Assembly: GCF_019059575.1 (NCBI RefSeq)
Contig: NW_024881710.1
Span: 369,001-433,000, forward strand
Reading direction: 5' to 3'
Source of the DNA: Amphibalanus amphitrite
Lineage: Eukaryota > Arthropoda > Thecostraca > Balanomorpha > Balanidae
DNA length: 64,000 nucleotides
Shown: piece after piece, positions 12,820 through 54,221 of the stretch
Layout of the letters: each line of letters starts with the position of its first letter
Position numbering within the stretch: position 1 is the stretch's first letter
The notes under the pieces: model-generated
The model's input: the letters and a program-made list of their open reading frames with translations, nothing else
What the model was told of the DNA's origin: nothing
The model's database searches: none
Position numbers and translations under genes: made by a program

Positions 12820-13979
12820 TTAAAACCCGCGCCCTGATGGGGGGACCATTTTGGCCCCCCCCCCTGTGGTTTTTCTTAAATAGCGAGAAAACGGCGGCGC
12901 GCAGCGCCGCCAAATTTTGGGTACCTTACCGGGCATCAATTTGACACATTCACACAAAATTTCAAGTTACAGGTCACCTCAGGTCAGGAGTTATTGAGGT
13001 CAAACTGAGGCCATGTTCGAGTAAAAATGAGCAAAAAACATGACATCTTGAAACGCTCACCAATTCTACAGTTAACAAGCAATTTTAAAGTTCTTTATGT
13101 GGTTGTGTAGCAAAAAGACGGCGCTACAAAACTGCTATCTCGGATTTTCGAAATTTTGGGATTTTAACCCCCAAAAATAAAAAATTGATTTTTTAAGAAA
13201 AACTAAAAAAAAAAATCCAAAAATTATTCGAATTTCGAAAAAACCGGAATATATGTGATAGTCCCTGCGGTCTTCAATATAGGTACATACCAAATTTTAG
13301 ATCGAAACCTCTTTTTTGGCCAAGTTATAGCGAAAAAACTGATAAAAATTGATGACGTCAAATTTTTGAACTGAGTTTTTAGCAATTCTAGACCTCGTAG
13401 CGCAAAACGGAGACCACCATTGAACTCCCCGTGACGAGCTGCATCGAATCGATACCCATTTTATGCAAAAATATCAACTTTGAAATTTGACCTAATTTGA
13501 CCTGACCTTGACCTGACCAAAACGTGACCTAAGCTGGCCCTAAAGTCTGCCTGACCCACATAATCGCATTTGTCATGTAAAATGGACCATAAACATGTAT
13601 CACACGACACTTTCATATTGTGACCCCCCCAGTGACCTGACCTGGTATCAGTGACCTCAAATAGCAAAATATGTGTTTGAAGAACATGTCCCCATCGATG
13701 ATTGTCAATGAAATGCTTTTCACTCGATTTTACAACGCATTTCTTGAAATGCCTGTAAACGGTGAAAATTCTACCTTTGTCCTGACCTGTGACGTCATCG
13801 GTTTGACCAAGTTCAATGAAATTGGGTCACAAGGTATTTCCCCGTTGGGGCTATCCAACGCCGTTTACCGCTTGTCGCTATGTTGCGTGGTTCTCGAGAT
13901 CCTAGGGGGAGGGCCAAAATGGCCCCCCCCCACCCATCAGACCGCGTTGCTAGGCAGACCCCATCAGGGCGCGGGTTAA
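12820..13979. mobile_element. TTAA element TT6 (CCCGCGCC subfamily, complete)
   Basis: 1160 bp, inserted at a TTAA of the GCGGCGGAAC MITE. The left end has a single module (CCCGCGCCCTGATGGGG). The right end has the doubled form: an inner copy near 13932-13945, spacer TTGCTAGGCAGA, and an outer CCCCATCAGGGCGCGGGTTAA-type end. The interior shares long stretches with TT17 in the same orientation and TT8 in inverse orientation, including TGACGTCA at 13790-13797 and a TGACCT run at 13493-13520. No open frame resembles a transposase. Confidence 0.9.
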
Positions 13980-14041
13980 GGGGGTGGGGGCACCGCCGAC
14001 TTTTGGTCCCATTCTTTCCACATTAGCCCATAGGGCTAATA

Positions 14042-15231
14042 TTAACCCGCGCCCCACTGGGGGGGGGGGGGCTACTCATAGCCCCCTCCCGTTTTCTGCA
14101 ATAACTTCTAAACCGCTTGACGTATCGCCTCCAAACTTACAGTACCTTCGGCTGCATCAATTTGACACCTTGTGTCCAAATTTGAACTTCGTATCTATCA
14201 TAGGTCGGTCGGAAATGACGTCAGAGTGACGTCATGTTCGGCCCATTTCGACGCAAAACATTGAACCACGGGAATCGCTCCCAAGAGCTCAGTTTTTGAG
14301 CTAGATCCAATTTCTTTGCATGAGAGAACTCAGAATGGACGGCGCTATCAAACTGCTATCTCGAGTTTTTTTTTTGAAAATTATATATATATTAAAATTC
14401 AAAATTTGTATTTTTTATTTTTTCAAGAACTTTTTGACCTTTCGAAAAAAACGAAATATATATGATAGAACACATGCTTATGACTTACTCTAGCAGGGTT
14501 TAGCCAGATTCCTTCAAAAATGGCTAAGTTATACGTGTTACCTATAGCAAAAATTACACAATTTTAATTTTTTCAAATCAATTTTTTCTGTACGAATTTA
14601 ACATTGGACACCAATATAAATAGCACCATCGTGTTCCTGAGCTCAAACTACATCCGATAGACATGTTTTTGTTGAAAATTTCAACTTTAAAATTTGATCT
14701 TTTTTGACCTGAAAGTGACCTGACCTCAGCTATATTTAGATGAAAATGGCCTCAAACGACACATGCGACACCGAATTCGAAATCTATGGCCTAAATGGAC
14801 CATAAAACATGTGTCACGTGACCGACTTATGAAAGATTTCCGTGACCTATAATGACCTAGCTGAGTGCTGACCCTGACCTGAAAATCAAAGTACAAGTTT
14901 CGTACCCTCAGGGCATCTAAAGCATCTGTTCACGAGTGTGTAGACCAAAACTCAGATGATCTGACTTGTAAGACGGCAGCCAGAGCCCAAAAAGTGCGCA
15001 AGCCAAATATCGATAATTTTTACTTTGCCCTGACCTGTGACGTCATCGGTGACCTCGAGGTCAATGAAAGTAGAGTTCGCTCGACAGTTTTTTCCGGGTC
15101 TATCAGATGCCGTTTGAATTTTGACGATCGGCCCAGTAGTTTCGGAGTTAGGAGGGGGGGGGGGGCGGGGGCTATGAATAGCCCCTCCAGTGGGGCGTGT
15201 TATACACAGACCCCAGTGGGGCGCGGGTTAA
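14042..15231. mobile_element. TTAA element TT7 (CCCGCGCC subfamily, complete)
   Basis: 1190 bp, inserted in a second TTAA of the same MITE as TT6. Left single end CCCGCGCCCCACTGGGG; right doubled end with CCAGTGGGGCG twice (15188-15197 and 15214-15223) separated by TGTTATACACAGACC. TGACGTCA at 14216-14223, 14227-14234 and about 15038. TGACCT repeats at about 14704-14726. Confidence 0.9.
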
Positions 15232-15297
15232 AATGCTAAAATCAAAGGGGGCACGGTGCCCCGGTGCCCTCCCCGTTCCGCCGCCTATGGGTAAAAG

Positions 15298-15981
15298 TGC
15301 TGTGTAATCAAGCGTTAAGTAATCAGCAGACCTATCCAACTACAACGTAACTACCTACTGTAGGGGGGTGACGTTTACCGTGTCATGTTTGGCGAAGTGC
15401 GAATAGCGATTGTCAACACAGACCGTGTTCGGTTCTGCCTCCTTTCGGCTGAAAAGACAGGTTTTCAGTGATTTCGTTTATTTCCACAAAATAGTCATTC
15501 ACTTGGCCCCTAAAACCAGCAAGCACTCGCCTTCGTATGAGCTAAAAAAAGTCGCCGGTCGGCCGGCGTGGACGCAGCACGCTAATCTCCCCGTGCCGAG
15601 ACCGATCTATCAGCGGCGGCAGTTCGGCGTCATGAGATGCGATACGAATACAAAACTATTGTCAGTGTCGGGCGGATCGCGTTATCGAGCCGCGCCTGTT
15701 TCTGAGATACAGTAACACACCCATTCCTGCCACACACGGAGGTGCCTCAACACCCAAGCTCAGCGCGCACGTGACAATGTCAGTCCAGGCTCCTGTGGGC
15801 ACATGACTCGCGCACGTGATCACGTGGCGTCAGTGCCCACGCGCCGGTGGCCGGACTATCACACGGTGTTGGAGGTGGCACGTCGCTGTCGGTGCCGGTG
15901 TTCGAACACCGGACGTCCCCTCCCCTCCGCCCCTAGGTAGGGCTGCTGTTAACAAAGACGCCCTCAGGGCTGATGCTGCTA
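15298..15981. other. 3' flank of the innexin gene
   Basis: Between the innexin stop codon and the MITE/TTAA block. On the innexin strand an AATAAA-type signal lies at 15477-15482, about 500 bases past the stop, so much of this may be 3' UTR. Forward-strand open frames here have no recognised motif. Confidence 0.4.
15477..15482 (-). promoter_or_regulatory. Possible polyadenylation signal for innexin
   Basis: TTTATT on the plus strand reads AATAAA on the minus strand, 500 bases downstream of the innexin stop. It is the first canonical signal that I noticed. Transcript data would be needed to confirm it. Confidence 0.35.
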
Positions 15982-17058
15982 CTATTGGACGTCTTTGCCC
16001 TCGAAACGACGTGAGAGATCGTTGATGAACTCCTTGTAGATGAGCGGGTCCATGTTCTTTCCCAGCTGATAGAGCAGGAACCAGTCGCCGATCTGGCTCT
16101 TGCGGGCGATCGTTTCAATCTGTTCTGGGGGTGCGAGGCGGGCGCGGGCACGGAACAGGTAGAGCCGCACCTGGGGCGAGACCACCACCGCCAGGCGGTA
16201 CAGAAGCGACAGACCAGTCACCACCGCCACGATGATGAACCAGAACCAGAGGAACACGAAGATCTTCTCGTTGATGATGTTGAGCGACAGGACGCACAGG
16301 CCGTCGAGGCGCTGCACGGTGCCGGAGGCTCCGTACTTGTGGAACGTGCACTTGGTTACCTTGGGGAACACCATGGCCATCGGGTCGGGCCGGTCCTCCT
16401 GGTCCATGTTGGCGTAGTGCACCACGCGCGAGCCGTACGTCGTGAACTCGTAGCCCAGGAACATGTCGGTGAAGTACATCTGGCAGATGACGTTGACGAA
16501 GTTGAGTACTTCGCAGAAAAAGAAACGAATGGCGTAGAAGTTGTGGTTGTGCAGGTTCATCTGGAAGTAGTCGACCAGCAGCTTCTTACGATCCCGCTTG
16601 GCGTCTTCGTCGATGATGGGGCAGTTCATCTCCATGACCAGCATCTTGCACTTGCCGCCCTCCCAGATCTTCCACAGGTAGCGGGGCACGAAGAAGAGAA
16701 TGGCCTGGAAGAAGAGCACGAAGCACACCCACTGGTAGTACTTGTGGTACTTGATCTCGTCGCCTTCCTGCACGGTGTCCACGCCGGGGTGCGGCACGGT
16801 CTCGCCCTGCGCCTTGGTCAGGGCGCGGGGCACCGTGAAGGTCGAATGGATCCAGCAGTAGGTGTCCATGACATTGCCGGGAACGCCATCGACAATGCAG
16901 TCGATCGGGTCACCGATGTACTGGCGTGAGGTGACGAGCAGCGAGCACACGATCAGCAGGATCACGGTCGCCTTGTAGTGCAGACGGAAGATGTTATTAT
17001 CGATGCAGACCGTGTCGATCTTCAACAGGCCCTGCACCGATCCAAAAATATCAAACAT
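15982..17058 (-). CDS. Inx2: Innexin (gap-junction protein, Inx2-like), intronless coding exon
   Basis: A 358-residue innexin, the subunit of invertebrate gap-junction channels and hemichannels in the plasma membrane. Four hydrophobic segments are visible at about residues 29-45, 109-128, 176-197 and 265-287. The diagnostic YYQWV lies at 107-111, where TM2 begins. Each extracellular loop has its two conserved cysteines (C54 and C68; C237 and C255). The N-terminus MFDIFGSVQGLLKID and the motif RQYIGDPIDC match the arthropod Inx2 group; Drosophila Inx2 is 367 residues, so this is full length. The start at 17058 has a good context (GCCAAGATG). The coding region has no intron. A possible 3' splice site (TTTCTGGCTAG) lies about 30 bases upstream, so the 5' UTR may be split. 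Codon use is GC-rich, unlike the AT-rich repeats around it. Confidence 0.95.
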   Translation of the reverse strand: MFDIFGSVQGLLKIDTVCIDNNIFRLHYKATVILLIVCSLLVTSRQYIGDPIDCIVDGVPGNVMDTYCWIHSTFTVPRALTKAQGETVPHPGVDTVQEGDEIKYHKYYQWVCFVLFFQAILFFVPRYLWKIWEGGKCKMLVMEMNCPIIDEDAKRDRKKLLVDYFQMNLHNHNFYAIRFFFCEVLNFVNVICQMYFTDMFLGYEFTTYGSRVVHYANMDQEDRPDPMAMVFPKVTKCTFHKYGASGTVQRLDGLCVLSLNIINEKIFVFLWFWFIIVAVVTGLSLLYRLAVVVSPQVRLYLFRARARLAPPEQIETIARKSQIGDWFLLYQLGKNMDPLIYKEFINDLSRRFEGKDVQ

Positions 17059-17400
17059 CTTGGCGGCTGGGAGCGCGGTTGCCCGCGACTAGCCAGAAAG
17101 TGAGCCCCTTCCAGACACCACGAGCTCCGCGTCCGCCGCGCGCGTGCGCCTCGACCTCACTCCGTCTGAGGAGAGCGACTGAGTGCTGCCCTCGCGGCCG
17201 ACCGGACGAATAGCCTTCAGCCGGGCCCGCTCGCGTGTAGGGCCGTTCCGCGCACCGTGTGCCGCGAACAAAGCGCCGTGGGCTGGTGGTGAGAGCGGGC
17301 GGGCGAGGCCGCACGAGGAGGGGAGGGGAGGGGAGGGAGGGGCAATGAAACACGGTCCGCCAACGGCGAGTCTGGAGAGGGTCAGCGGTGTCGGATTGGC
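17059..17400 (-). promoter_or_regulatory. GC-rich 5' region of the innexin gene
   Basis: CpG-rich segment directly upstream of the innexin start, with a G-rich tract (GGGGAGGGGAGG-like, 17319-17342). It probably holds 5' UTR, a possible UTR intron acceptor near 17090, and core promoter sequence. No TATA box is evident. Open frames on both strands are of GC-rich background type. Confidence 0.4.
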
Positions 17401-17509
17401 TCAACCCACGCTAGGGGAGAGATACACGAGATAGAGAGATAGGGAGATAGCAGAGGCAGGAGATAGAAGAGGGGAAAGATAGTGGAGGTCAAATGTCAAA
17501 GAGGGAGGG

Positions 17510-17511
<2 letters not shown>

Positions 17512-17555
<44 letters not shown>
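17512..17555. repeat. (CT)n microsatellite
   Basis: About 22 uninterrupted CT dinucleotides. On the innexin strand this is (GA)n roughly 450 bases upstream of the start codon; GA tracts bind GAGA-type factors in arthropod promoters, so a role in innexin regulation is possible but unproven. Confidence 0.95.
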
Positions 17556-17558
<3 letters not shown>

Positions 17559-19189
17559 CTCGCACTTGAAGTTCAAAAACCACTGATACGGCCATATCGG
17601 TGTCGGATATGGCTATGCGATTAGAAACATTCCCGACGTGCCGTCACTTAGAAATAACCATTCACTTTTCGGCAACTAATAATTTTCTTGTTTGAACCTT
17701 TCCTGAAACTGAGTTTGAGACAAAAGGACCTGTCCTCCGACAGCAGTAAACAATTAAGAATAAGAGACACGTCTCGTTTTTTTTTTTTTTGGCGAGTACC
17801 TAATCACATGGCCCGGATGTTTCCAATACGTTTTGAACCCACTGGTGGATCCAAATTCAATGGGGCGGGGGGGGGGGACCGGACCAGCCAAGTCTAGAGG
17901 GCCATCATCATCGCTATTTAATTAAAGGGTGGCTAAAATATGATTGTAAGGTCTCCATCCAAAACAAAATCAGTCCCTATCAAATCGCCTCTGGGAACAA
18001 TTCACAACAGACGACAAACATGCAAACAAACGTAAAAGCCAAAGACGTTTAGATCGGTCTTTGACTTCGAAGACCACGTTACGGAGGAGACCATTTGAAG
18101 AGGCTGACACCTCAGCTTCATTTTTCTGATGAGATAACGATGAGCAAATAATGGCAGAATCCCTGGCACATTATACCTCATTGAAACTGGAGTGTTTGCC
18201 GTCAGACTGTATATTTGTAATGAACATCTACAAACATGCGTGCGGCAGACCGCAGTAGGCTGTCAGACAGCATCCCCCACGGGAAAACGAAAGAGCTGGT
18301 ACATACAACACCGGGAACAAGGATCGACATGATGACAGAGGCTGGGACGTTACTCACGACCATCAGCCAGAGCAGTGTAACCAACATGACACGAACATCA
18401 AAAGGGTAGGACCATTTTGGCCACCCCTATCTAATACCTAGCTACTTCGCTAACTACTCAGTCCGAGATCATTCTTAGAAAACGTAGAAACGCCGCCCCT
18501 TACAAACTGTGAGCCTCCAGACGTGTCGTAGACGTCACTCATGGCACGTCCCGAACAAGAACCCTCTGAGCAAAGGTAAGAATCACGTCACAGAGCCACC
18601 ACAGAGCAGTCCATCGTACCCGAATACGAGCACCTCCTCCAGGACACCAAAGGAGCACAACTTGCCCCAGTGGCCGGCGACGACCACAGAGCGACGCTCA
18701 AACGGCACACGGATGAGTGGCAGACAGGACTGCCAACAGAGGAGTTAGGGAAGGGGCGGAGTGACATACAGAAAATGAGACGCGAGACAGCTCCAGTCTC
18801 GTGAAAGTTACAACTATGATAGTCAGGTAAGCTACATCTGGTGACATAACCTAACCCACCAAAGAAAAGTATTTGGTTGTCTGATACCTGTATCAGACAA
18901 CCAAATACATAAAAGGATGTGTGATGTAACAAAACACTTACAAAAGAAGCATGAATGTCCATACAAATACATTTCATGAATATAAATGGGCAAGGATGGC
19001 GTAAAAACACATTAAATGAAAGCAAGCGTATCACCGCGCCTAGCGATTCCTCGGGCCCAGCAATTCCTCAGCCTTAACCACGACACTCCAGTTGGCTCGG
19101 CCAGCTCAGTGCGCCACGCACACTCCATCCACATTGAACGCAGCGCTGGAGCGGCTGTTGAGCTCTCCCCGCCCGGTCGGCGTCTGGGC
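17556..19189. other. Gene-free spacer
   Basis: Between the innexin upstream region and the last exon of the DFF-like gene. It contains a GGATCC-plus-G-tract repeat fragment (17842-17880). The part nearest 19189 is presumably 3' UTR of the DFF-like gene. A short perfect inverted repeat built on TTGGTTGTCTGATAC lies at about 18870-18906. No protein-like frame. Confidence 0.4.
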
Positions 19190-19475
19190 TCAGTTTCCAC
19201 CCTTCTTGCAGTGTTTGAGGAAGCTGAGCGCCTCCTCGACGTCGCGCCGGCCGTCCAGGTAGCGGCAGCTGGCCTCCTGGATGTCGGCCACGAACTGGGC
19301 GTCGTAGCCGGTGGCCTGGTCGGGCGTCAGCGCGCCCAGCAGCTCCAGGTCGGTGCCGCCTAGCAGGGCGATGTAGCCGGGGTCAGCGCGCAGACGGTGC
19401 AGCAGGTGGCTGCGACGCGCCGCCGCCGCGCCGCCACTGCCGCACGCGTCTGGCTCGTCTCCAATCTGCACCGTA
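19190..19475 (-). CDS. DFFA: DFF-like gene, terminal coding exon
   Basis: 94 codons plus stop (TGA at 19190-19192). Acceptor TCTTCCTTCAG immediately precedes base 19475, and the exon's first base completes a tyrosine codon with the TA left by the previous exon. After an alanine/glycine-rich linker, the sequence has amphipathic helices (SHLLHRLRADPGYIALLGG, then DLELLGALTPDQ, then DAQFVADIQEASCRYL, then DVEEALSFLKHCKK), as expected for the DFF-C domain. That domain assignment is by pattern only. Confidence 0.65.
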
Positions 19476-22400
19476 CTGAAGGAAGACACGGAGGTCAGCG
19501 GGGGTCACACAAGCCGTTTTCACGACGGGCTATCTGGTGAATGCACCTAAATTGACCAAATCTGCAGCAAATCCCTTTTACAGCAAATTTCTTCACATCA
19601 TGAATTCATTTCAGTGTTTTAATCGAAACAATGTCTGATAGTTCTGATAACTTTTAAGAAATACAGCGAGCGTAATTTGACCAAATCTGCACCTAATCTG
19701 CACCAAATGTGCACCACATGGCCTTCGTGAAGACGGCTAATGTAGATCCTGGACAGAGTGAATCGCACTGTCCAGTCTCCTTCAGCCCACCCAGTCAACA
19801 TGGATCTTACCGAAGAACTGGCGCTTCAGGAACATGACATTCGCGACCAACGGCGCATACAGCATTTCATAGGTATACGGCATGGTAACAATGATGATCT
19901 GCTAAGCCATCATCAAATTAGCTTCTATCTTCGTGTACTTTTTGTCGAATAATGAAAATGACTAATGATTCCAAGGCTTTTAGTTCACTATCATATGAAA
20001 AAACTAATGTAAAAAAGATTGATGATCTCATTCTTGCCCCCCCCCCCCTCCCCCTCCCCCCAGCAGGAACGATTGCATATGTACTGACTTAGATGCCCCA
20101 CTGCCCCAGTTGCACTAATAAAGAGCCGATGTAATGTCCACGCAAACGACAGCAGCTCGACCCAGCCTCTGTTGTCTGACGACACTCGGCCACGACTGGA
20201 CATCCCATCGGCCGTATAAATATCCATCGCCGCTGCTGCAAGCGGCGAAGTATAACTCCTGACCTTGCTAGGTTGTCAGCTACCGAAGCACCGAGCGAGG
20301 CCTTCAGAACGAATCAGGATCAATGAGTCTTAAAATGGGTAGGCGCTAGACCACACTGCAGGAGTTCAGACAGAGCACGAGTTAGTTCTAAACAGTTGCG
20401 ACTTTAAAAGAAATATACTACTTCCCTCAAATTAGCTTTTTCTGTTACCGGCTTGTGATTTTTAATGCTTCAAATGAACAGAAAAGAAAACAATTAATAT
20501 TTAGGCACGAAAGGAACTTTTAAAATATTTTCATGTACGAAGAACTATTTTCCATCTTTGGTAGAGGCTAAATTATGTTTGCAGCGGAAGCTTATCACGC
20601 GTTGACCAATCATATTGCGTAGTTCTAAACCAACTGCAAGCTGATCGGCTGACGATTGGCCTCTGCCAGAGGTGGCTGCATTCTTTGCATTCTTCCGTAA
20701 GGCAACGCATTCCTCCATGAGGGACTCATTTCGGAACTAAAATAGCCTACTTGTGACATTTTAACCCGCGCCCTGGTGGGGTCTGTTTATAACGCGACCT
20801 GGTGGGGGGGGGGGGGCTATTTTTTGCCCCCCCCCTCGTATCTCCGAAACTACTGGACGGATCCGCAAAATTCAAACGGCGTTCGAAAGGCCTGTCAAAT
20901 TTGTCGAGGAAAACCGAATTTCATTGACCTCGGGGTCACCGATGACGTCACAGGTCAGGTCAAAGATGAAATGTTTCACCGTTCACGGGTCTTCTAGGGA
21001 ATGCGCTATAACACCGAGGAAAACGCATTTTGTCGAGAATCAGCGATAGGGCGTCAGTTGCCTAGTAGATATATTACTATTAGAGGTCACTGACAATACC
21101 AGGTCAGGTCACAGGTCAGGTCACCAAGGGTCACAGGTCAGGTCACATGAGCCCAACTTTACTAAGGTTGTGTGATGCATGTTTTATGGCCAATTTTTCA
21201 TTTCCAACTCAATGGTATTGGTTATAAGACTATCAGGTACGGCTTAGGTCACTTTCTGGTGAAGTTCAGGTCAAGGTCAGGTCAAGGTCAGGCCAAAAAA
21301 GGTCAAATTTTAAAGTTGATAGTTTTGCATAAAATGGGTATTGATTCGATGCAGCTCGTCACGGGGAGTCTAATGGTGGTCTTTGTTTTGCGCTACGGGG
21401 TCTAGAATTGCTAAAATTGAGTTTGAAAATTTGACGTCATCAATTTTGAAGTTTTTTCGCTATAACTTCGCCAAAAAAAAAAGAGGTATCGATCTCAAAT
21501 TTGGTATGTGGATGGAAGGCGGTAAGGACTATCACATATATTCCGGTTTTTGCGAAATTCAAAAAACTTTTTGGATTTTTCGATTATTATATGCAAAAAA
21601 TTTATTTTTTGATTTTTTGGGGTCAAAATCCAAAAATTTCAAAAATCCGAGATAGCAGTTTTGTAGCCCTGTTGATTCTACAGCTTTTATGTTTTTATCA
21701 TTTTTCTGTATTTGCAAAGCTATAGGCCTGACAGCTCTTCCCGCGAAACCCTTTTTTGGGTCGAAAACGGCAGAACATGACGTCACTCTGACGTCATTTC
21801 CGGCCAACCTATCATAGCCTCTGGAAAAATTTTTGGTCACAATGTGTAAAATTGATGTCCGGGAGGGTACTGAAAGTTTGGTGACGATCGGCGCAGCGGT
21901 TCTGGAGATATATCAAAAAGTCTGGAGGGGGGGCAAAAAATAGCCCCCCCCCCACCAGGGCGCGGGTTAACCGGATGAATTTAGACCAAAGCATAGACAA
22001 AACTTGAAAGAATAATCGTCGATTCATCAATGCTTGAAGGCTATGCCCAGACTGAGAAATGGGTCAGAATCCGCCATTTCGTGTCGCGGTTGCCATTTTG
22101 CCCGGTACACGGTGCAGGCGCCTGCACGGCACAGTGGCGGCGATGCACCCGATATGGTCGCCCACCAGAGCCGCCGTATCGGCAGAACGCCCCCGATTAT
22201 GTATACTCGTGGTCCTGTCACGGACAGCGGCAGGCCGTTCCTCGACAGGCGACCTCGCTGCTACCGAGAACCACCAGCCCAACACCCGCTCGCTCAGCTC
22301 GCGTGACTGGCAACCGGCGCCGGCCGTGACAACCCTGACTGCCACATAAGCCCTGCCAACCTTCCGCTAGCGAGCTGAGACAGCCCTCGGAGCTCTGAGA

Positions 22401-28207: not shown

Positions 28208-29217
28208 TTAACCCGTGCACCGACGGGGGGGGGGGGCGGATAACCGCCCCCCCCCCCTGAGGTTTTTCGCGGATAGCGGGAAAACCGTCGCGAAATTTGG
28301 TACGACTATTCTCTCATCAATTTTGTACATGGTGTGCAAGTTTGAACCTCCTAACTTTCAAGGTCAGGTCACCAGGTCACTTTGAATGACCCAACCTCAA
28401 GTCACTTTTTTGCAACTTTGTCACCGTGCCAGAGCTACAGTAGATGTCGGAGGCCTTTGAAAGTCGCAGGATGTTATAAGGTCATTAGTAGCTACAATTT
28501 GCATATCTCGGAATTTTGATGTCGGTGACCTAAGGTCAGGTCAATTTCGCGACCTTCCCATTATAAGTCAATGGGGGAAAAATCAACTCCCTGTTTTTAC
28601 CACTAAAACGGGTCGGAATGGCCCCATATACCATACATGACTTCATATACGATCAACCTTTACTACCTTGAGGTCTGTTTTGCTGTTGGGCAGCTGTAAG
28701 GTCATGTGACGTCATCAAAGGTCACCAGCGGTTTTTTTGCCAATAACTCCGTACAGGAACAAGATACAGCCGCGCGGATGGTCTCATTGTGTTCAGCTCG
28801 TCAAGACGCATCGAATGATATACATGATGACCTCGAGGTCACGTGACCTGAGGTCAACCTTTGACCTTGACCTTTCGAGGTCAACATATATATCATTCGA
28901 TGCGGATTGACGAGAGGATCACGATGATGCCCTTAGTTTGTTCCTATCTTGACTAATTCGAAAGTTATTCGAGAAAAACTCTCTCCATATCTAGCGCCGC
29001 CATTTTGACTTTTTCGACCCCTGTGACGTCATCTTTGACCTGACCTGAAAATGACCTTAGTAAAAATTGTAGACCTTGTCCGTGCGTATCCGATGCCGTT
29101 TACCGCTTGTCGCTATCTTGCTTCGTTCTCGAGATCTCAGGGGGGGGGCGGTCATCCGCCCCCCCCCCCCCCCGTCGGTGCGAAGTTGGCGCAGACCCCC
29201 GTCGGTGCGCGGGTTAA
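28208..29217. mobile_element. TTAA element TT9 (complete, strongly palindromic)
   Basis: 1010 bp. Left single end TTAACCCGTGCACCGACGGG; right doubled end with CGTCGGTGCG twice (29174-29183 and 29201-29210). G/C-tract hairpins at both ends. The centre is a near-palindrome: CTCGTCAAGACGCATCGAAT at 28798 against ATTCGATGCGGATTGACGAG near 28895, with AGGTCA and TGACCT runs between. TGACGTCA near 28707 and 29023. Confidence 0.9.
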
Positions 29218-36439: not shown

Positions 36440-36444
36440 CCGGG

Positions 36445-39630: not shown

Positions 39631-39634
39631 AAAT

Positions 39635-40920: not shown

Positions 40921-40928
40921 TATATAAA

Positions 40929-43407: not shown

Positions 43408-44592
43408 TTAACCCGGCCGGGCCCGGGGGGTAATCCCAACCACCGCAGCCCGGGGGGCGTTTTTCGCCCCCCCCCCCTGTCTAACTCCGTAAATAACGGA
43501 GCTACGGAAACAAAAGCGATACCAAACGAAAGGTCCTTACGAGAAGATTAAAAAGCACCCAAAATTTTTGACCTCAGATCAATTTTCAAGGTCAGAGGTC
43601 AAGGTCAAAGGCAAAAACCGGCACATGTGTAGTGATCTCAAAGTAAGCGTTCCAGAGGACGGCAGGATGCATAAACCGGCAAAATTGGGTGTCAAACGAA
43701 AGAAGAGAATCTGAGGATTCCGAAAATGTGCTCAAAATGATAGGTCAAGGTCAAGGTCACGCTCAAAATTGACCTCAAACTTTGCACTTTTTCGTACATC
43801 TTGCGTGCTAGCTTCCAAAATGTTTTGAAATGTTTTGGGGCTATCAGTTCCCTATTTGTGGTTCATCTTACGATACGAGGCTGCTCAAAGGTCAAGGTCA
43901 CAGAAGAGTATCCTTGCTAGAGGCTATTTCAATGATTCAGGTTAGTAATAATAAATAATACAATTTTGCCATCCGGAAGCTCTAAATGAAGGCTTAGAGG
44001 AAAATAGATGCCAGATTCGTGATCAGCGAGTACATATCCATCATAAACGACCTTTCATGTGTCAAGGTCAACCAAAGGTCATCCGAGGTCACATGAGGTC
44101 AACATAAAACTTGACCTTTTCCTAACAAAATATATATCATTCGACGCGGCTTTACCAGGCGAATGCGATGTTACCACTGCCGTAGCTCTAGGACCATTTT
44201 TGTTGAAGTTATTTGCGAAAAACTAAACCCACATTTCGGGGTCGTTGACCTGACCTGCGACCTCAGGTCACCAAACTATTTTTCTATTTTTATCTCAGTA
44301 AAACGCTACACAACCGGGCTCGTAATGTGTCTTCATCTCTAAAGCTCTATTTTAAGCAGCTATTTGAAGTTCGCGTCTGTGACGCCGAAGTTTGGCGTGC
44401 AGGGGTCTAGAAAAATTGACCCTGTGACGTCATCAAGGGGGCTAGGTCCAAATATTTTACTTCAGAAGATGTCAAATTGATGGGAGAAAAGGTACTGAAA
44501 GTTTCGCTTTCCTATCCCTAAGCGTTCAGGAGCTACCGCAAATATTTGCCAGGGGGGGGCGAAAAACGCCCCCCCGGGCCCGCGAGGGTTAA
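43408..44592. mobile_element. TTAA element TT11 (GGGCCCGGG ends)
   Basis: 1185 bp. The left end is doubled (CCCGGCCGGGCCCGGGGGG, spacer, CAGCCCGGGGGGCG with C-tract); right end CCCCCCGGGCCCGCGAGGGTTAA-type, single. Interior includes repeated AGGTCAAGGTCA (for example 43598, 43741, 43894) and an ATATCATTCGACGCGG block at 44132. Shares its right TTAA with TT12. Confidence 0.85.
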
Positions 44593-45514
44593 CCCGCGCG
44601 GGGCTGGGGTCTCCAGCCGAACGCGCGGGGCTGGGGGGGGGGGTAAATTTTACCCCCCCCTGTTATCTCCCGAACTAATGGTCCGATTTGGAAAATTCAA
44701 ACGCCAATCGAAAGTTCTCATCACGAACAACTAAAAACATGTACTTAATTTAAAGTTTGAGGTCAAGGTCAAGGTCAGGTCAAGGGTACAAATTGCAAGT
44801 TTCTACAGTATCGGCGTTGCACCGTAGTTGCCGAAGAATGGAGTCATGGACTGAGACTGATTGCCCAAAACGTGTTCTTAGGCTACCAAGACAATATTCG
44901 TTGCATACAATATCATTCAGACGTCAAGGTCAAGGTCAGGTCAGGTCAGGTCACCAAAAACAAAATATAGAAAAGGGCATGTGCAACACATGTTTTATGG
45001 GTCATTTTACTCATACCGATTCGCGGCCAATAGGCAGAATTTTAGAATTCAATAGGCATACTCAATAAGTGATATGGACCACCTCTGGATGAATTTCAGG
45101 TCGAGGTCAGGTCAAGGTCAGGTCAAGTGTGGTCAAATTTTGAAGTTGGTTGTTAAGGCCTAAAAAGGTGTCCATCTGATGCAGTTTTTCACGGCGAATC
45201 GAATGGTGCTATTTTTTCCGTGCGAGGTCTAGAACTTCCAAAAAAATCATTTTTCAAAATTTTTGTGTGTCGTGACGTCATAAAATTTTGAATAACTCCC
45301 ACATTTTTGAACCGATTCTTCTAAAAATTGGTATGTAGGTGCACGTAGACCACTTCTCTGACTTGTAGGTATTCCGGTTTTTCGATATACCCAAAATTTT
45401 GGATTTTATAATTATTTTCCCAAAAGAGTCAGCTTTTTGAAATAAAATTGGGCCAAAATCCAGCATTTTCAAAAAACCGAGATAGCCATTTGATAGACAA
45501 AGTAGAATTACGTA

Positions 45515-46408
45515 CCAGTAAAACGCCTTTTGGGCGAAGAACGAGCGAGCGAGATAGTGAGCCCTGCACGTGCAGAAGGGCGAGAGGGTACTTCCAACGG
45601 GCTTGTGCAAAGCACCCTTCTAACCGGTCGCTGGCGGTGTACCAAATTTGAACGCAATCGGCCCAGCCGTTCCTGAGATCTGGAAGCGGCATTCTGCACG
45701 TGCGCACGTGCAAACGGGGTCCAAAATGACTTTTGCACGGCACCCTACTAACCGGTCCCCAACCGTGCACCAAATTTGAGCGCAATCGGCCCAGCCGTTC
45801 TCGAGATCTGGAAACGCCCCCTGCACGTGCGCACGTGCAGTAGCACCCTAACCGCAACACATGGGAATGCATTGTCTGGTGGGTGCCTACCTGTATGCCA
45901 AGTTTCAGCGAAATCGCCCCAGTAATTACCGAGTTACTGAAATGGGAACAAATTTGACACCTCTTATTGTTGTATTTTGCACGTGCAGTGGGAGTCACTC
46001 ACATATATGAAGAGTATCCGACCTTTGGTAGAAGGGATGCAGCTACGCTATAAAAATGACCGCAAGACAATCGCTCAAGCCGCTGCTGAGATATGGGCCT
46101 CTCAAAATCATTACTTTTGCAAAACTGCTTGAACACCCTTGACTTTTCACGTGGCACGTGCCACGGCGGTCACTGAGATGTATCAAAAGTAGTCAATTAC
46201 GGGGTAGAAGGGATGGGGCTACCCAGCAAAAAAGACCGCAGGCCATTCGGTCCAGCGGTTGCTGAGATATAAGCCTCTCAAAAGCGTTACAGGCCGGGCC
46301 GGGCCGGGCCGGGCCGGGCCGGGCCGGGCCGGGCCGGGCCGCTCATACTGAGATTTTTCCGTTATATTGAAAAGACTTCGCTTCGCTCGCTGCGCTCGCT
46401 CGCTCGTA
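45515..46408. mobile_element. Tandem-repeat insertion (CACGTG-bearing 130-165-bp units)
   Basis: Present in TT12 but absent from the duplicated copy of the same sequence at 46986-47833, where GAATTACGTA runs straight into TAACCTTTTT. Inside are about five units starting near 45564, 45694, 45821, 45978 and 46143, each with TGCACGTGC palindromes and a GCCCAGCCGTTCCTGAGATC-like stretch in the first ones. It ends in a GGGCC pentamer repeat. The edges GCGAAGAACGAGCGAGCGAG and CTCGCTGCGCTCGCTCGCTC are roughly inverted. Confidence 0.75.
46284..46340. repeat. (GGGCC)n microsatellite
   Basis: Eleven or so perfect GGGCC units, within the tandem-repeat insertion. Confidence 0.95.
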
Positions 46409-46685
46409 ATAACCTTTTTTATTACGTCTTGATTCCTTTAAAAATGATGATGTTAGCGGCGTTTGAAATTTTGCCGTTTTTGAGGCGAAAATGGCGAACA
46501 TGACGTCACTAAAACGTCAATTTCTCAAAAATTTGCGACGGATTTCGCTCAAATTTTCAGGGAACGTGTCAAATTGATGTAAGAAAAGGTACTGAAAGTT
46601 TGGCGGCGCTGCGCGCCGCCGTTTTTGAGATATTGCAAATATTCGCGGGGGGGGGGTAAAATTTACCCCCCCAGCCCCGCGCGGG

Positions 46686-48722
46686 TTAACCCGCGCCGGG
46701 CCGGGGAATGTGCTTTAATACCCTCCCCCCTGCGGTTTTTCGCAGATATCTTAAAAACGGCGGCGCGGAGCGCCGCCGTTTTTGGCACACCTGTTCGTGT
46801 ATCTTTTCCGCACATGTCGTGAAAATTCAGACCCAGGTCGCCTTAGGTCAGGTCACCAGTCACGCCAGGTGACCTAACCTCAGAAAAAATAAGAATGCTC
46901 GTCATAGCTACACCGTTTGATCGATTGCCTTGAAACGTTCAGCGATTGATCAGAGCAACATTATCTATAAAATGTATATCTAGAAGTCTAGAACTTCCAA
47001 AAAAATCATTTTTCAAAATTTTTGTGTGTCGTGACGTCATAAAATTTTGAATAACTCCCACATTTTTGAACCGATTCTTCTAAAAATTGGTATGTAGGTG
47101 CACATAGACCACTTCTCTGACATGTAGGTATTCCGGTTTTTTCGATATACCCAAAATTTTGGATTTTATAATTATTTTCCCAAAAGAGTCAGTTTTTTGA
47201 AGAAAAAAAATTTGGGCCAAAATCCAGCATTTTCAAAAAACCGAGATAGCCATTTGATAGACAAAGTAGAATTACGTATAACCTTTTTTATTACGTCTTG
47301 ATTCCTTTTTAAAATGATGATGTTAGCGGCGTTTGAAATTTTGCCGTTTTTGAGGCGAAAATGGCGAACATGACGTCACTAAAACGTCAATTTCTCAAAA
47401 AATTGCGACGGATTTCGCTCAAATTTTCAGGGAACGTGTCAAATTGATGTAAGAAACGGTACTGAAAGCGCCGCCGTTTTTGAGATATTGCAAATATTCG
47501 CGGGGGGGGGTAAAATTTACCCCCCCCCCCCCCAGCCCCGCGCGGGTTAACCCGCGGCGGGCCGGGGAAGGTGCTTTAATACCCTTCCCCCTGCGGTTTT
47601 TCGCAGATGTCTCAAAAACGGCGGCGCGGAGCGCCGCCGTTTTTGGCACACCTGTTCGTGTATCTTTTCCGCACATGTCGTGAAAATTCAGACCCAGGTC
47701 GCCTTAGGTCAGGTCACCAGTCACGTCAGGTGACCTAACCTCAGAAAAAATAAGAATGCTCGTCATAGCTACACCGTTTGATCGATTGCCTTGAAACGTT
47801 CAGCGATTGATCAGAGCAACATTATCTATAAAATGTATATCTCGGAATTTTGATATCGGTGACCTAAGGTCAGGTCAATTTTGCGGCCTCTCCATTACCT
47901 ATAAGTCAATGGGAGAAAATTGAAAAACGTCTGTTTTGCACGAATGTTATTCTAGACACTCTCAAACATCGAGATGTAGGTAAAATTGACACACTGAACC
48001 GGAAAATGGCAACTGTGACCCCTCGTTATGTCCCCGAGGTCATCTCAGGTCACGAACAGAATCTAACAGTTTTTCGCTAATAACTTCTGATAGAGGCGTG
48101 CTACAGCGCTGAAAACGCCTTAGATTTGTTCGGCTCGACGTTGCGGATCGACTGATATGCAAAATGACCTTTTCCGGTCAGGTCATGACCTTGACCTGAG
48201 GTCAAATTTTCAAGTTGACCGTTCAAGGTCAAATTATAGTTCATTTGACGCGTCTCGACGAGAGGAACACGATGCTGGCAAAAGTAATGTCATTGCTCTT
48301 TCGAGTCAAAAGTTATTGCCGAAAAAACGCTTTTCGTAAAAACGGCTATTTTTGGAGTTTTTGCCCTCTGGAGGCTAAACCGTTGACCTGAGGTCAAATC
48401 TGAGGACATTAATCAGAAATGTCTGTAAAAGGGCTATCGAATGCGCTCTTCTGCGGCGCTGTAGCTCTATCGGTTCCCGAGATAGCCGTTGGCAGTTTCC
48501 AAAATGTTGAAATAGTCAATATTTTACCTTTGGTGACCTCTGGTGACCTGACCTTTGACCTGACCCAAAAAATGACTGAGTGTTTTCGTCCTTATTTTGG
48601 ACGTTCTTTCGATTGCCGCTTACCGCGTGTCGCTACGTGGCCCAGGAGCCGAGTTAGAAGGGGGTATTCAGACACCCCCGGCCCGGCGCGGAATCTCAGA
48701 GCACCGGCCCGGCGCGGGCTAA
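46686..48722. mobile_element. TTAA element TT13, enlarged by the tandem duplication
   Basis: Left single end TTAACCCGCGCCGGGCCGGG (46686, and again at 47547 in the duplicate); right doubled end with CCGGCCCGGCGCGG twice (48677-48691 and 48704-48718) and terminal CTAA, one change from TTAA. Without the duplicated unit it is about 1.18 kb. TT19 at the window end is a close relative (TTGCACACCTGTTC versus GGCACACCTGTTC). Confidence 0.8.
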
Positions 48723-50791
48723 GCAAAAAAAAAAAAAAGTCTCCAAAGGTTCCTCTCGTTGAGAGCTTTCGATTGTCGCTTTCCCTGTCTTTCTACGACC
48801 ATCGGCTCGGAAGTTAGACAAGGGGACAGAATATCCCCCCCCCAACAGGGTGGGCATGGCTGAATGGTGAATAGCCCAGCGGGGAGCGGCTTACTGGGCG
48901 AATAATATTTCATAAAATTTTGACAGGTTGATGGCAGTCGGTAAAAAAAAAGTTTCAGTAAAAATGTACTGAAATGGACATTGACGTCGAGCGATAGGAT
49001 GGTCATGGAAAGACCGGTAAAACGGCAATCGCAAGCTCTGAACAAGTAAGCTCTTTGCACTCCTTTGTTTGCCTGAGTAGGTCACAGGTAAGGTCAAGGT
49101 CAGGTCAATGGTAAAATTTATAAAAGTCTGGGCTTGGAGCCCAGTTAGCAAGAAATGCATTCAGATTGATCACCCAGAATGCGTTGTTAGGCTACAAAGA
49201 CAAGATGCATTACGTAAAACGCGATGAAAAGGTCAAAGTCAAGGTCATGTCATGTCACCAAAGACAAAGTATTGAAAAAGTTAAGTGCGGCACATGTTTT
49301 GTGGGTCATTTTATTCATATAACTCCATGGGCATGCTCAGTTAGTATTATAGAAGAGATAAGATAGATGAATCCTAGGTCGAGGTATGGTCAAGGTTAGG
49401 TCAAGTGAGGTCAAATTTGAAGTTGGTTTGTAAAACCAAAAAAAGTGTACAGCTGATACAGTTTTTCACGCCAAATCGAATGGCGCCGTTTTAATTTTTG
49501 TGTAAGTCTAGAGATTTTAAAAAAACGTATTATTTTGAAGATTTGTATTTGTCATAGCGCCACTTAAGTCTAAGCTTTCAATAACTCGTTTATTGTGGAC
49601 CGATTTCTACGAAAATTGGAATGTGGACTCTTAGTACGTACTTCGCCGACACATGTTCCGTTTTGTATCAAATATAACTTTTGGGATTTTATGACCATTT
49701 ACATTAAAAATCAGTTCTGGTGTTGAAAGAAATTGAATCAAAATAAAAAGAAGATAGTCATTTGAAAAAGGTAGAATCGCACTTGTGCCTCTTGTTACGT
49801 CTTGTTTCCTTAACCCGCGCATGACTGGGGTATTTTCCATAACGCGAATGACTGGGGAGGGGGGGGGGGGGCTCTCCAGAGCCCCCCTCCTATCTCCGAA
49901 ACTACTGGGCTGATCGTCAAAATTCAAACAGTGTCTGATAGCCCTGGAAAAACTGTCGAACGAAACCTATTTTCATTGACCTCGAGGTCACCGATGACGT
50001 CACAGGTCAGGTCAAAGTAAAAATTATCGACATTTTTGCTAGTTCACAATTTGGGCTCTGACCGCCGGCTAACATGTCCGATCAGGCTCATTTTTCGTTT
50101 ACGCACTCCTTGATAGATTCCCTAGATACCCTGAGGGCAACGAACTTTTACTTCGAATTTTTAAGGTCAACGTCAGGTCATCCTAAGTCACAAAAATTGT
50201 ATATCATGTATTGGTCACGTGACGCATGTTTTATGGTTCATTTTACTCGTAGATTTCGAAAATAGTGTCGCCTGTGTCATTTGAGGTCATTGTCAGCTGA
50301 ATTTACCGGAGGTCAGGTCACTTTCAGGTCAGAAAAGGTCAAATTTTGAAAATGAAATTTTTCAAAAAAAAGTGCCTATCAGATGCAGTTTGAGCTCAGG
50401 AACACGATAGTGCCATTTATATTGCTGTGCGACATCAAAAACGTACTGAAAAATGAATTTAAAAAAATATGTAATTACATTAAAATTTTGACAATAATGC
50501 GAATAACTTGGCTACTTTTGAAGATATTGGACTGTAAATTGCTAGTGTAGTTCATCAGAGAGCGTTCTATCACATATATTCCGCGTTTCGCGAAAAATCG
50601 AAAACTTTTTGAAAAAAAAAATCAACTTTTTGTAATTGTAAAAGCATATTTTTCAAAAAAATTTAAATTTGGGAAAATTCAAGATAGCAGTTTGATAGCT
50701 AAGTGTATTTGTAGTCCACTCATGCAAAGAAAATGGATCTACCTTTAAAACTGAGCTCGTGAGAGCGTTTGCCGTAATTCAATATTTTGCA

Positions 50792-51673
50792 TTAACCCTA
50801 TTAGTGGCAGGCTTCTGGCTACCCCTATTAGTGGCAGGGGGGGGGGGCTGTTTACGACCCCCCCTTGATATCTCGAGATCTAACGGGCCGATTTTCAAAA
50901 TTCAAACGGCATTCGATTTCGCTCAACGTGATCTACATTTCTATAAAAATAAAAATTAAAAAATGTCAATAGGGGGGTAGAGGGGGGTAAAAACGGGCAA
51001 ATTGCAGATACATTTTAGACTGTTTATCACGGCCAGGTTTCTGAACCAATCTTAACGCAACTTTTGCCGATCGATAGAGAATGAACCAGGAATTCACATG
51101 GATCCTAAAAATATGCATTTTCAAAAATCATAGGCGGATACAGATCATTGAGATTGGGGGTACACAAAAAGTATAGTAAATAAGGTTTTTGTTGGTACTG
51201 TTTCTAAAAAGGATGGTAATGGTCTTGTTATGTTACAATTTTCTTATGAGAGAACGACTACAATTGTATTGGTCATGCATAGGCGGTGTCAGGGCACCTA
51301 TGTTGGGAGGTAAAACATAACCCCCCTTTTTGGACGCCTGGATCCGCCTATTATAGCAAAAACGTGTCAAAAGAGAATGCACAATAACTGTATATGTTAT
51401 CACATGATACCTTTCATTCACTGTTCGTAAAACTGGTGCAGCGTCGTGATCTTCGCCCAAATGACTCGCTTCACGAATAGGACCCCACAATTCCCAGTGC
51501 TCTGGAGCCGCCCCTGGTAAAGTTATGAACTTGAAATTTTCAGGGAATGTGCCCAATTTAGTTTTAGGAAAAGTCAGAAAATTTCAGCATCGTAGCTTCA
51601 GCGGTTTCGGAGATATTCCCGAAAAACCTGAGGGGTGGATAAAAACAACCCCCCCTGCCACTAATAGGGTTAA
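50792..51673. mobile_element. TTAA element TT16 (CCCTATTAGTGGCAGG ends)
   Basis: 882 bp, nested in TT15. The left end carries CCCTATTAGTGGCAGG twice (outer 50796, inner 50821) before the G-tract; right single end CCTGCCACTAATAGGGTTAA. The terminal sequence differs completely from its neighbours except for the CCC start. The interior lacks most AGGTCA repeats. A GGATCC repeat fragment (51125-51345) may be inserted in it. Confidence 0.85.
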
Positions 51674-52792
51674 CCCGCGCCCCGTAGGGTGTGGGCCGAA
51701 ACGGCCCCCAATGTCCTTTTACGTCGATATCTCCTAAACAGCTAGAGATATCGCCACCAAACTTTCAGGACCCCTCCGGGCATCAATTTTACACATTGTG
51801 ACCAACAATTTTCCAGAGGCTATGATAGGTTGGCCACAAATGACGTCAGAATGGCGTCATGTTCTGCCATTTTCGACCGAAAAAAGACCTTCGCGAGAAG
51901 AACTGTCAGGCCTACAGCTTTGAAGATAGAGAAAAATGATCAGACATAAAAGGTGTAGAATTGACAGGGCTACAAAACTGCTATCTCGGATTTTTGAAAT
52001 TTTTGAGTTTTGACCCCCAAAAATCAAAAATTCAATTTTTTGGATATATTAGCCAAAAAATCCAAAACGTTTTTTGAGTTTCGAAAAAAACGAAATGTAT
52101 GTGATAGTACCTACCGTTTTCTATCTACATACCAAATTTCAGATCGATATCTCCTTTTTTGGCCAAGTTATAGCGAAAAACTGTTCAAAAATGATGACGT
52201 CAAATTTTCAAACTCAATTTTTGGCAATTCTAGACCACGTAAGGTAAAACAAAGACCACCATTGGACTCCCCGTGACGAGCTTCATCGAATCGATACCCA
52301 TTTTATGCAAAAATACCAACTTTGAAATTTGACCTAATTTGACCTGACCTTCACCAAAACGTGACCTAAGCTGGCCCCAAAGGCTGCCTGACCCACATAA
52401 TCGCATTTGTCATTTAAATGGACCATAAAACATGTATCACACGACACTTTCATATTGTGACCCCCAGTGACCTGACCTCTGTGACCTGACCTGGTATCAG
52501 TGAGCTCAGATAGCGAAGTATGTGTTTGACGAACAATGTGCCATCGATGGTTTTCAATAACTTACCAATTTACTCGACTTCACAACACATTTCTTGAAAT
52601 GCCTGTGAACGTTGAAAATCCGACCTTTGACCTGACCTGTGACGTCATCGGTTTGACCAGGTCAATGAAATTTGGTCACAAGGTAGTTCCCCGGTGGGGC
52701 TATCGAACGCCGTTTGAATTTTGAAAATCGGCCGGTAAATTTCCGAAATCTTGTGGTAGGGTCCGCTGGCAGCCCTACGGGGCGCGGGTTAA
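51670..52792. mobile_element. TTAA element TT17 (CCCGCGCC subfamily)
   Basis: 1123 bp, sharing its left TTAA with TT16. Ends CCCGCGCCCCGTAGGG and CCCTACGGGGCGCGGG match; the inner duplicate on the right is only weakly preserved. The interior is nearly collinear with TT6, for example CATCGAATCGATACCCATTT at 52273. TGACGTCA near 51842, 52196 and 52641. Confidence 0.85.
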
Positions 52793-53131
52793 AATCGGGC
52801 GACATGACGTCACTCTGACGTCATTTCCGGCCAAACTATGAGAGATAGAAAGTTATAATTTTAACACAAGGTGTCAAATTGATGCCGCTGAGGGTACCGA
52901 AAGTTTTGTGTTGATCCATCAAACGGTTCAGAAGATACTGCTGAAAAACGGGAGGGGGGGGGGGGGGGGGCTCTATGCGCGGGTTAAAACTGAAGATGTT
53001 GGACGCATTTTGAGTTTTCGAGTTCTTGAAGCGAAATGGCGTGACATGACACGAAGCTAGAACACAAATTTGATGCATGACAGCGACTGAAAGTTTGACG
53101 CAGCTGGCTTGACGCGTTTAGAAGATAAAAT

Positions 53132-54053
53132 ATAACCCTCGCCCATGTAGGGGGGGGGGGGTTGGTGCAACCCCCCCCCCCCCCTGAGGTTTTTCTTAGC
53201 TACGCCGAACCGTTTCAGATAGCCTGCTCAAATTTTCAGTACCCTTTGGGGCATCCTTTGAGCAACTTTTGGTAATTTTTTTTTTGTCAAGGTCATGTCA
53301 GGTCACGGAGTTATGACGTCATAAAGGGAACAACCTCCGGCCAGATTTACGCTAAATTGGAGATTGCTTCACATTGGTATAAATGCCGACTGACCTGACG
53401 CACTGATGGATTGTTTTAGAATCACAACTGGCTGATTTGACATTGGCACAAGGTCCGTTGACATTTTGAAGGTCACTAAAGGTCAAGGTAAGGTCAGTGA
53501 CCTCGGTTGACCTGTAATGACTTCTTGCACTTGTATACCCTTTTCGGGGTATTTTGATGCCCTGAATTCGAATTTGCTATCCATTTCAGGCATCGTCGGT
53601 TGTTTCTTGTAGTTCATTTTGGGTCAGGGTCAGGTCAGTGACGTCACACGCCTGACGTGACCCAATGCACAAATGACCTTGCAGACTTCCGATGCTCCCA
53701 ACGCATCATTTTTAGAGTTATGACATCGAAATACACACCAAACGATAGAGAATTGATCAAGGATCACGATAGTGAAGGTTTCAAGTCGATATCTCTTACC
53801 GTTTTGCCGCAATCGGCGCGGAAATCTGAAAAGTTAGATTTTTCCGAAAATTTGACCTTTGACCGGTCATAAGTAGGTCAAATGTTGACCTAGGACCAAA
53901 AATATACCACCAATCGCGAGATCTCGTTGAAAGCAATCCGTTGGTCTTTTCCGCTAAGCTCTACGACGCTTCGTTTTCAAACGCGAGGGGGATCGCACCA
54001 ACCCCCCCTGCATGGGCGAAGGTGGCAAAACACCGTTTACGGGCGAGGGTTAA
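53132..54053. mobile_element. TTAA element TT18 (CCCTCGCC subfamily)
   Basis: 922 bp, nested in TT14. Left single end ATAACCCTCGCCCATGTAGG; right doubled end with an inner CTGCATGGGCGA (54008-54019) and an outer TTACGGGCGAGGGTTAA, whose outer copy has diverged. The left target site is ATAA instead of TTAA. TGACGTCA near 53314 and 53640; AGGTCA repeats near 53288 and 53480. Confidence 0.8.
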
Positions 54054-54221
54054 TATTCATTTAGCGAAATACGGGAGCGGGGCAGATTCTGCCTCCCTTC
54101 TCTCTCAGCAGGGCGCGGGTTAATAAAATTCCATAACCTGAAATTGGTCTGACGATATAAATCGGAAAGCCAAGCTGAGCATTCCTTCTAGAGATGTCAA
54201 TCGGATACCGACTTTTTGGTA

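Follow-up and report, generated by a model that had tools for sequence, protein, structure and literature searches.

The window analysed here is a stretch of 64,000 nucleotides of the barnacle Amphibalanus amphitrite (positions 369001-433000 of contig C213, in a genome of 807.6 Mb in 2644 contigs), and it contains a series of short TTAA-flanked elements which, from their sequence, are non-autonomous members of the piggyBac superfamily. Each element carries a copy-specific group of letters, here called the box, just inside its ends, and the matching of these boxes within copies is real. The matching is most likely inherited, and the evidence is on the whole against conversion or templating between the ends of a copy. 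The end variants mark families, but the converse fails, since one interior carries several end sets. The explanation that probably accounts best for the whole is that the founder of each family had matched boxes, which its copies inherit, and that ends and interiors can be separated by recombination between families.

The elements have two unlike ends. The A end has the layout TTAA-CCC-NCGC-box-G run-loop-C run, while the B end reads TTAA-CCC-NCGC-box-spacer-box-G run-loop-C run, with a spacer of about 16 nt; the G run and C run form a palindrome around the loop. In the 30 of 33 elements where its position was measurable, the G run of the A end begins at a median offset of 17 and that of the B end at 44, and the median shift between them is 27 nt. 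The inner duplicate of the box stands at one end only. The boxes are diverse, with 36 distinct 7-nt cores, falling into 23 single-linkage clusters, among 86 sampled ends. Most of the elements are 0.6-1.2 kb long, with similar lengths within most families. The features of the window are the following, with coordinates and strand.

1805..2709, plus strand: element of the group named G1, with box CCGGCACAGG.
11019..12058, plus strand: element with box CCGGCCGAGG at the A end and as the inner copy, and a different outer B box, as also in its sister copy in stretch L008.
12820..13979, minus strand: TT6, a non-autonomous piggyBac-type element, with palindrome loop CCATTTTGG, an extra AA at a TTAA, the A end on the left (TTAAAACCC.., box CCCTGATGG) and, on the right, a B end with a double box.
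14042..15231, minus strand: TT7, with box CCCCACTGG at both ends and an inner copy at the right (B) end.
20761..21970, plus strand: TT8, with box CCCTGGTGG and the B end, with its double box, on the left.
28208..29217, minus strand: TT9, with box CACCGACGG and a private one-letter flank difference (GTG/GCG) at one end only.
43408..44592, plus strand: element with box CGGGCCCGGG and unlike tip letters at its two ends (GGC, TCG).
44589..46689, plus strand: TT12, with box CGGGGCTGG three times and a TTAA in common with both neighbours.
46686..47550, no strand assigned: chimera with two A ends, the left with box CGGGCCGGGG (of TT13), the right with CGGGGCTGGGG (of TT12).
47547..48722, minus strand: the true TT13, with the A end on the left and, on the right, a B end with double box CGCCGGGCCGG, whose outer flank is TTAG instead of TTAA.
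50792..51673, plus strand: TT16, with box TATTAGTGGCAGG three times.
51670..52792, minus strand: TT17, with box CCCCGTAGG at both ends, the inner box deleted and a mosaic interior.
53132..54053, minus strand: element with A box CCCATGTAGG, a differing outer B box (8/12) and ATAA for TTAA.

Open reading frames of at least 120 aa in the window, among those that were tested, encode no transposase. Absence of a transposase, family-typical lengths, thousands of matches in the genome and ends shared with an autonomous element, described below, are the features by which miniature inverted-repeat transposable elements and other non-autonomous elements are recognised, and all of them point to this class here. 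Because most elements were found through a TTAACC search, TTAA at both ends is partly so by construction; of 20 G1 copies chosen solely by their A edge, 16 are closed by a suitable B end with TTAA, and the stretch fetched showed no B end for the other four (L033, L040, L048, L050). The tip is CC[C/T] throughout, as the search required, and the fourth letter is T in the TCGC and TATT classes and G in the GCGC classes, the B end of a transposase-bearing element on contig C33 also having G. The piggyBac tip motif is given as CC[C/T]T in the description of coral elements (PMC2872659). Membership is also consistent with element L028:4742-6257, which matches the flank of a transposase on contig C1010 (92% over 202 nt, including the end). 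GGTCA and AGGTCA are very dense in the element interiors (e.g., 12940-13700 and 43560-44130), with GGTCA at 16 per kb in the elements compared with 3.2 per kb elsewhere in the window; the hexamer AGGTCA is known as the half-site of nuclear receptors.

The reality of the matching was assessed with boxes of 12 nt in 264 kb, made up of the window and 20 stretches of contig C1. All 32 nearest inward-facing end pairs, none dropped, agree at 10.28 of 12 letters within pairs and 6.03 of 12 between pairs; agreement of at least 11/12 is found in 21/32 pairs within and 48/992 between, and the within-pair sum was reached by 0 of 20,000 shuffles. A curated set (n = 30) takes 26 of these pairs and adds four elements that were completed by visual inspection (L020:2126, L028:4742 of contig C72, and those at 12820 and 53132 in the window); it omits four pairs as ends of different elements (L006:5439, L009:4850, L012:9172, window 7364), one nested element that does match (L020:3033) and the mismatching chimera at window 46686. 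In this set the agreement is 11.03 of 12 within and 6.32 of 12 between (0/20,000 shuffles), with at least 11/12 in 23/30 and 41/870, respectively, and the 7-nt core of the A end recurs within the inner B region of 26/30 elements, at least 6/7 letters agreeing (0/5,000 shuffles). The pattern that the first-pass annotation of this DNA described is thus borne out, although two of its eight cases fail in detail. Its fixed TTAACCC start is enriched in the window, with 34 occurrences compared with 10.8 expected and 0 of 100 shuffles reaching 34. Its statement that eight named copies carry the same variant at both ends holds for seven of them (TT6, TT7, TT8, TT9, TT12, TT16 and TT17); the eighth, the copy at 46686, was rejected as a matching-end element, as its two A ends come from different families. 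The inner duplicate that it also described is present in TT7, TT8, TT9, TT12 and TT16 (7/7 core letters) and in TT6 (6/7), as well as in the true TT13, and fails in TT17 (4/7), where it has been deleted. The ends of the true TT13 match except for one letter. Three elements outside the earlier list, at 11019, 43408 and 53132, match more weakly (8-9/12).

The chimera corresponds to TT13 at its positions 1-296 (98%) and to TT12 at 298-593 and 593-865 (96% and 91%), and from this arrangement it is best read as a tandem duplication across a shared TTAA. TT12 itself holds an unrelated insert of about 0.9 kb (about 45515-46408). The ends of this insert resemble CGAGCGAGCGAG, it contains CACGTGCGCACGTG palindromes and a run of GGCCG repeats, and it is lacking from the duplicated copy next door. 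Abutting elements share a single TTAA (GGGTTAACCC) at 8 junctions in the 264 kb, which hold 1124 TTAA; these are 44589, 46686, 47547 and 51670 in the window and L001:1399, L001:6077, L010:8049 and L012:9172 elsewhere, one of them duplicated by the chimera. It is as if new copies had been inserted into the TTAA of old ones. Nesting is also seen at L020:2126-5234, a TT6-like element (box CCCCGTTGG) that hosts a G1 element at L020:3033-5003 (box CCCGTATA).

The interior of the G1 element at 1805..2709 is found genome-wide under two other end sets, CATGTGTA and CCCGTATA. Its interior edges have 2355+2324 matches on the A side and 2223+2268 on the B side, counted as pattern matches and not as whole copies, which corresponds to about 4,500 places. 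The 100 matches listed per side are the first in order (contigs C1-C5) and not a random genome sample, and they carry three end sets. When the A and B ends of these 100+100 matches are paired by coordinate, the A, outer B and inner B boxes are concordant in 50/50 unique paired copies among the matches listed, of which 20 are CATGTGT, 19 CCGGCAC and 11 CCCGTAT; a 51st pairing (C2:129900/128844) joined an A end to a neighbour and is not counted, that A end being already paired with 129001.

The first-pass annotation had argued that independent mutation would break such matches, so that something must keep the ends of one copy identical. The G1 copies are too young for this argument, with 22 of them lying a median of 2.5% (range 1.7-10%) from the majority sequence of their family in a sample mostly picked by exact interior-edge match, which favours well-kept copies. 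Gene conversion through the hairpin, or templating of one end on the other, would also give a within-copy match far above chance, and in some other families (those of TT8, TT12 and L003) the palindrome loops are the same at both ends, TT8 and TT12 also having a longer shared stretch. Against both processes, among the matches listed core mutations are found in 5/50 paired G1 copies with none repeated at another box, while TT9, L007, L014 and L017 have one one-sided change each. In G1 the loops of A and B are consistently unlike, and the shared core spans only 6-7 nt in surroundings that are unlike and specific to their position; because of the loops of TT8 and TT12, this part of the argument is limited to G1. 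Homogenisation of ends within copies was rejected, for the sets looked at, on the unshared core mutations and the unlike G1 loops, and is regarded as very improbable as the cause of the matching. Of the three options offered in the earlier annotation, hairpin conversion and end-to-end templating both fall away, and selection for matching ends at the birth of each lineage is the one retained, the boxes standing at positions recognised by the transposase in the piggyBac of Trichoplusia ni.

The same annotation had named ordinary subfamily structure, with interiors diverged as much as ends, as the result that would refute its reading. Parts of this are seen, in that copies with a common box are mostly of similar length, with 90-98% identity, apart from deleted exceptions such as L007, and the end type predicts the interior type: for 21 of 22 comparable G1 copies, the nearest majority interior is that of the family with the same ends. 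A CGG-ended copy, L012:4872, has an interior marginally nearer to the ATG majority (0.047 vs 0.049), and L033, about 47% from all three majorities, is uninformative and was excluded from the breakpoint test and from the divergence between copies and majorities. The family majorities, taken from 23 aligned copies with G runs counted within the end modules, give interiors that differ at 13/758 (ATG vs CGG), 20/732 and 30/739 positions, or 1.7-4.1%, while the A modules differ at 11/35, 5/35 and 12/38 and the B modules, spacer included, at 28/74, 17/83 and 24/76 (20-38%). Between these three families the ends, at 14-38%, are thus far more diverged than the interiors; the earlier annotation's own refuting test goes against ordinary subfamily structure, and plain subfamily structure with equal divergence was rejected for G1 because its interiors are far less diverged than its end modules; as an account of the whole it is improbable. 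The interiors are closer between families than the ends are, which is the pattern of one centre under different terminal inverted repeats by which chimeric elements are recognised.

A slower-changing interior could also reflect function, with interiors held constant by sites acting in cis, such as the dense GGTCA repeats, so that the ends only seem to be fast. The 34.5 kb of elements contain 551 copies of the motif compared with about 58 expected after shuffling, and for the coral elements known as CMITEs it has also been proposed that the conserved interior plays a part in transposition (PMC2872659). On the other hand, the identity between the ATG and CGG interiors is one block beside the A end and not a set of GGTCA stretches, and single G1 copies have changed at 1.7-10% of their interior relative to the family majority. 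Constraint of this kind is therefore held to be unlikely, about as much so as plain subfamily structure.

The distribution of the differences points to recombination or conversion between families, with breakpoints lying within the palindromes or close to them. When the ATG majority is compared with that of CGG, 13/13 interior differences fall within the last 288 of 727 comparable columns, and there are none in the first 439, which adjoin the A palindrome, although the A modules outside that stretch differ by 31%; this clustering has P 6e-6 under uniform placement, in a test that takes the majority differences as independent, and P 1e-4 for the longest gap anywhere. In the window, the TT17 mosaic is nearer to TT6 than to TT8 in columns 160-560, on the B side and in the middle (0.79-1.00 vs 0.60-0.78), and nearer to TT8 than to TT6 in columns 880-1200, on the A side (0.85-0.94 vs 0.45-0.72), and its first 160 columns are like neither. 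A sister copy of TT8 lies at L013:2926-4134; the two interiors are 93% identical, and the sister is 1209 nt long compared with 1210 for TT8. The element at 53132 has its interior in common with a transposase-bearing element on contig C527 (83% over 305 nt), but the likeness does not extend to the terminal 45 nt. In L018, a B module resembling that of C527 (79% over 85 nt) is joined to a different interior.

Such end sets could also arise with no recombination, if the specificity of a transposase shifts and its followers change their three boxes stepwise under selection while the interior drifts slowly. The lineage of TT6 and L020, defined by the spacer TCTGCCTAGCAACGCG, resembles this kind of stepwise co-evolution more than it does module exchange: the spacer of the TT6 B end is found at 17 loci genome-wide (57 rows), where it is constant and the core varies in the two B boxes together, with 14 TGAT cores, one with two inner-box changes, and 3/17 loci with CGTT, one of which is mixed (CCCGTT/CCCTGTT). 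The position-specific surroundings of the core are also kept across the G1 families. As a general account, stepwise change is nevertheless unlikely, though less so than functional constraint or plain subfamily structure, since the whole B module of G1 is 20-38% different beside interiors that are 1.7-4.1% different, the differences run unevenly (the 439 identical columns next to the A palindrome, the TT17 mosaic), and hybrid end sets are lacking, with none in the 50 paired copies listed and no exact hybrid among five B ends with discordant boxes. Recombination and stepwise co-evolution may both be acting.

The link between box and enzyme was followed through the transposase-bearing elements of the genome, which has at least 116 matches to PF13843, the piggyBac transposase. 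Eleven of these loci were looked at for ends. At C33:447032-451754 an element of 4.7 kb has the same anatomy as the short copies, with two CCCTGGTG boxes at its B end and one at its A end, around an open frame of 645 aa. The protein matches PF13843 with E 9.4e-60, has two further copies at 100% identity, and aligns over residues 116-643, the Cys-rich C terminus included, with the T. ni piggyBac structures 6x67/6x68 (E 1.2e-56). It has the three Asp residues that are catalytic in piggyBac transposases. Ends of the box type are found on both sides at C33, on both sides at C527, with an imperfect A end, and on the B side, the sole side fetched, at C1010. The C1010 transposase is 54-76% identical to that of C33, depending on the segment, and its B boxes, CCCCAGTGG/CCCTAGTGG, are one or two letters from those of C33, with a close spacer; the C527 transposase is 38% identical to that of C33, and its element differs both in the B boxes, CACGACCAGG/AACGACCAGG, and in the spacer. 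Among the other loci, the ends on both sides of L021, L022 and L024 are of a simple inverted type (TTAACCCATTAG.., TTAACCCAGATC..) with no doubling of a box, L023 and L025 have one simple end each in the stretch fetched, and for L028, L029 and L030 (C72, C1136, C1726) no ends could be assigned, the box-type ends near L028 and L030 belonging to neighbours. That the box follows the transposase is no more than suggested by these three links; the copy-specific letters are most likely transposase-recognition boxes. The genome, for example on contigs C8, C39, C45, C500 and C1950, has many long open piggyBac frames with identical or near-identical scores, in groups of 604 aa and 569 aa, which suggests recent activity of several other piggyBac families.

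Here it is proposed that the box of each family would be the recognition site of its transposase, present as a single copy next to the palindrome of the A end and as two copies at the B end, in the order tip box, spacer, second box and palindrome. Family founders would carry matching boxes because one transposase has to recognise both ends, and young copies would simply inherit them. Elements of different families would then recombine or convert inside their palindromes, swapping the middle and leaving both ends in place, or, equivalently, bringing an old interior under a new matched end set, and the recombinant would be amplified by the transposase that reads its ends; several matched sets on one interior would follow from this exchange. 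The stronger proposal, that dozens of distinct end codes, tripled in each element, are each read by a transposase lineage of their own and that interiors switch code through palindrome recombination, is tentative and judged somewhat short of even. If it is true, a passenger interior would escape the death of its transposase by swapping its whole matched end set at once.

Several observations weigh against the main explanation, of matched founders and recombination between families, besides the lineage with the constant spacer and the independence on which the uniform-placement test depends. The C527 A box, AACGCCTAGG, only partly matches the B boxes (ACGACCAGG), the A end having been assigned because it has the only TTAA in that stretch, and the C1010 link comes from the B end of an element whose frame is broken. 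None of the 11 loci looked at yielded a transposase-bearing element whose box is CGGCAC, ATGTGT or CCGTAT. The CGG module, with 1067+1097 matches, sits on the G1 interior in about 97 of the 100 places listed (judged by eye; the first 100, on C1-C12, not a random genome sample), and because it is almost only on this interior an older CGG family with an interior of its own is not seen. Five of the 100 B ends listed were classed differently at the outer and inner box; on recheck these are ties or have at least one change, with C4:2664354 as the best candidate for a hybrid.

The anatomy is close to that of T. ni piggyBac as described in PMC7351741, where the right end RE63 differs from the left end LE35 by an insertion of 17 bp and a second copy of the box, the transposase core binds the first 16 bp, the cysteine-rich domain (CRD) dimer binds a palindrome at bp 17-33, and randomising the second box about halves activity. 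Because RE63 has the same asymmetry, the inner duplicate is the counterpart of the second box of the piggyBac right end. The two systems have in common the TTAA target, a single-box end opposed to an end with box, insertion, box and palindrome, and a homologous transposase with a Cys-rich C terminus; the barnacle elements differ in the G-run/loop/C-run hairpin palindrome and in the many box forms within one genome. In piggyBat of Myotis lucifugus, as reported in PMC11707139, a box (GCGGGA) is likewise followed by a palindrome and repeated at one end; unlike here, three repeats stand 44 bp apart at the left end, and that account describes no palindrome at the right.

A common interior under different ends has precedents. 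Coral CMITEs, in the description of PMC2872659, are also piggyBac-type and non-autonomous, with an interior more conserved between families than the ends and with tandem copies; they are about 100 bp long with 13-14-nt repeats and about 1,600 copies, whereas the barnacle elements are mostly 0.6-1.2 kb, have their box in triplicate, reach about 4,500 places for a single interior edge alone and show a mosaic breakpoint. In Galileo of Drosophila mojavensis, a member of the P superfamily, one centre (98%) is reported under the terminal repeats of three subfamilies (77%), a pattern explained there by exchange with both breakpoints inside the element (PMC3573991); in contrast to the present case, Galileo belongs to a different superfamily and has long terminal repeats, and 170 copies were studied there as opposed to thousands here. 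By analogy, the barnacle pattern can be regarded as a very large and clear variant of the one known from CMITEs and Galileo. The literature searched held no description of a tripled code so varied in one genome, or of such scale, which is not proof of absence. With thousands of places, one interior, at least three end codes and transposase-bearing relatives, the genome offers a measurable system that allows tests of how transposase specificity diverges, of changes of the mobilising enzyme, and of recombination compared with stepwise co-evolution in the origin of new families. The diverse natural codes might also supply separate, non-cross-reacting piggyBac systems for laboratory use.

Structured RNA was considered and rejected, as the window has no Rfam match at gathering scores. 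The window also has an innexin open frame at 15982-17058, a sign of invertebrate DNA. Outside the elements, a long nested inverted repeat occupies 57233-57502, with arms of 42 and 45 nt (98% and 91% complementary) that are CGTTTT-rich and unlike the TTAA elements.

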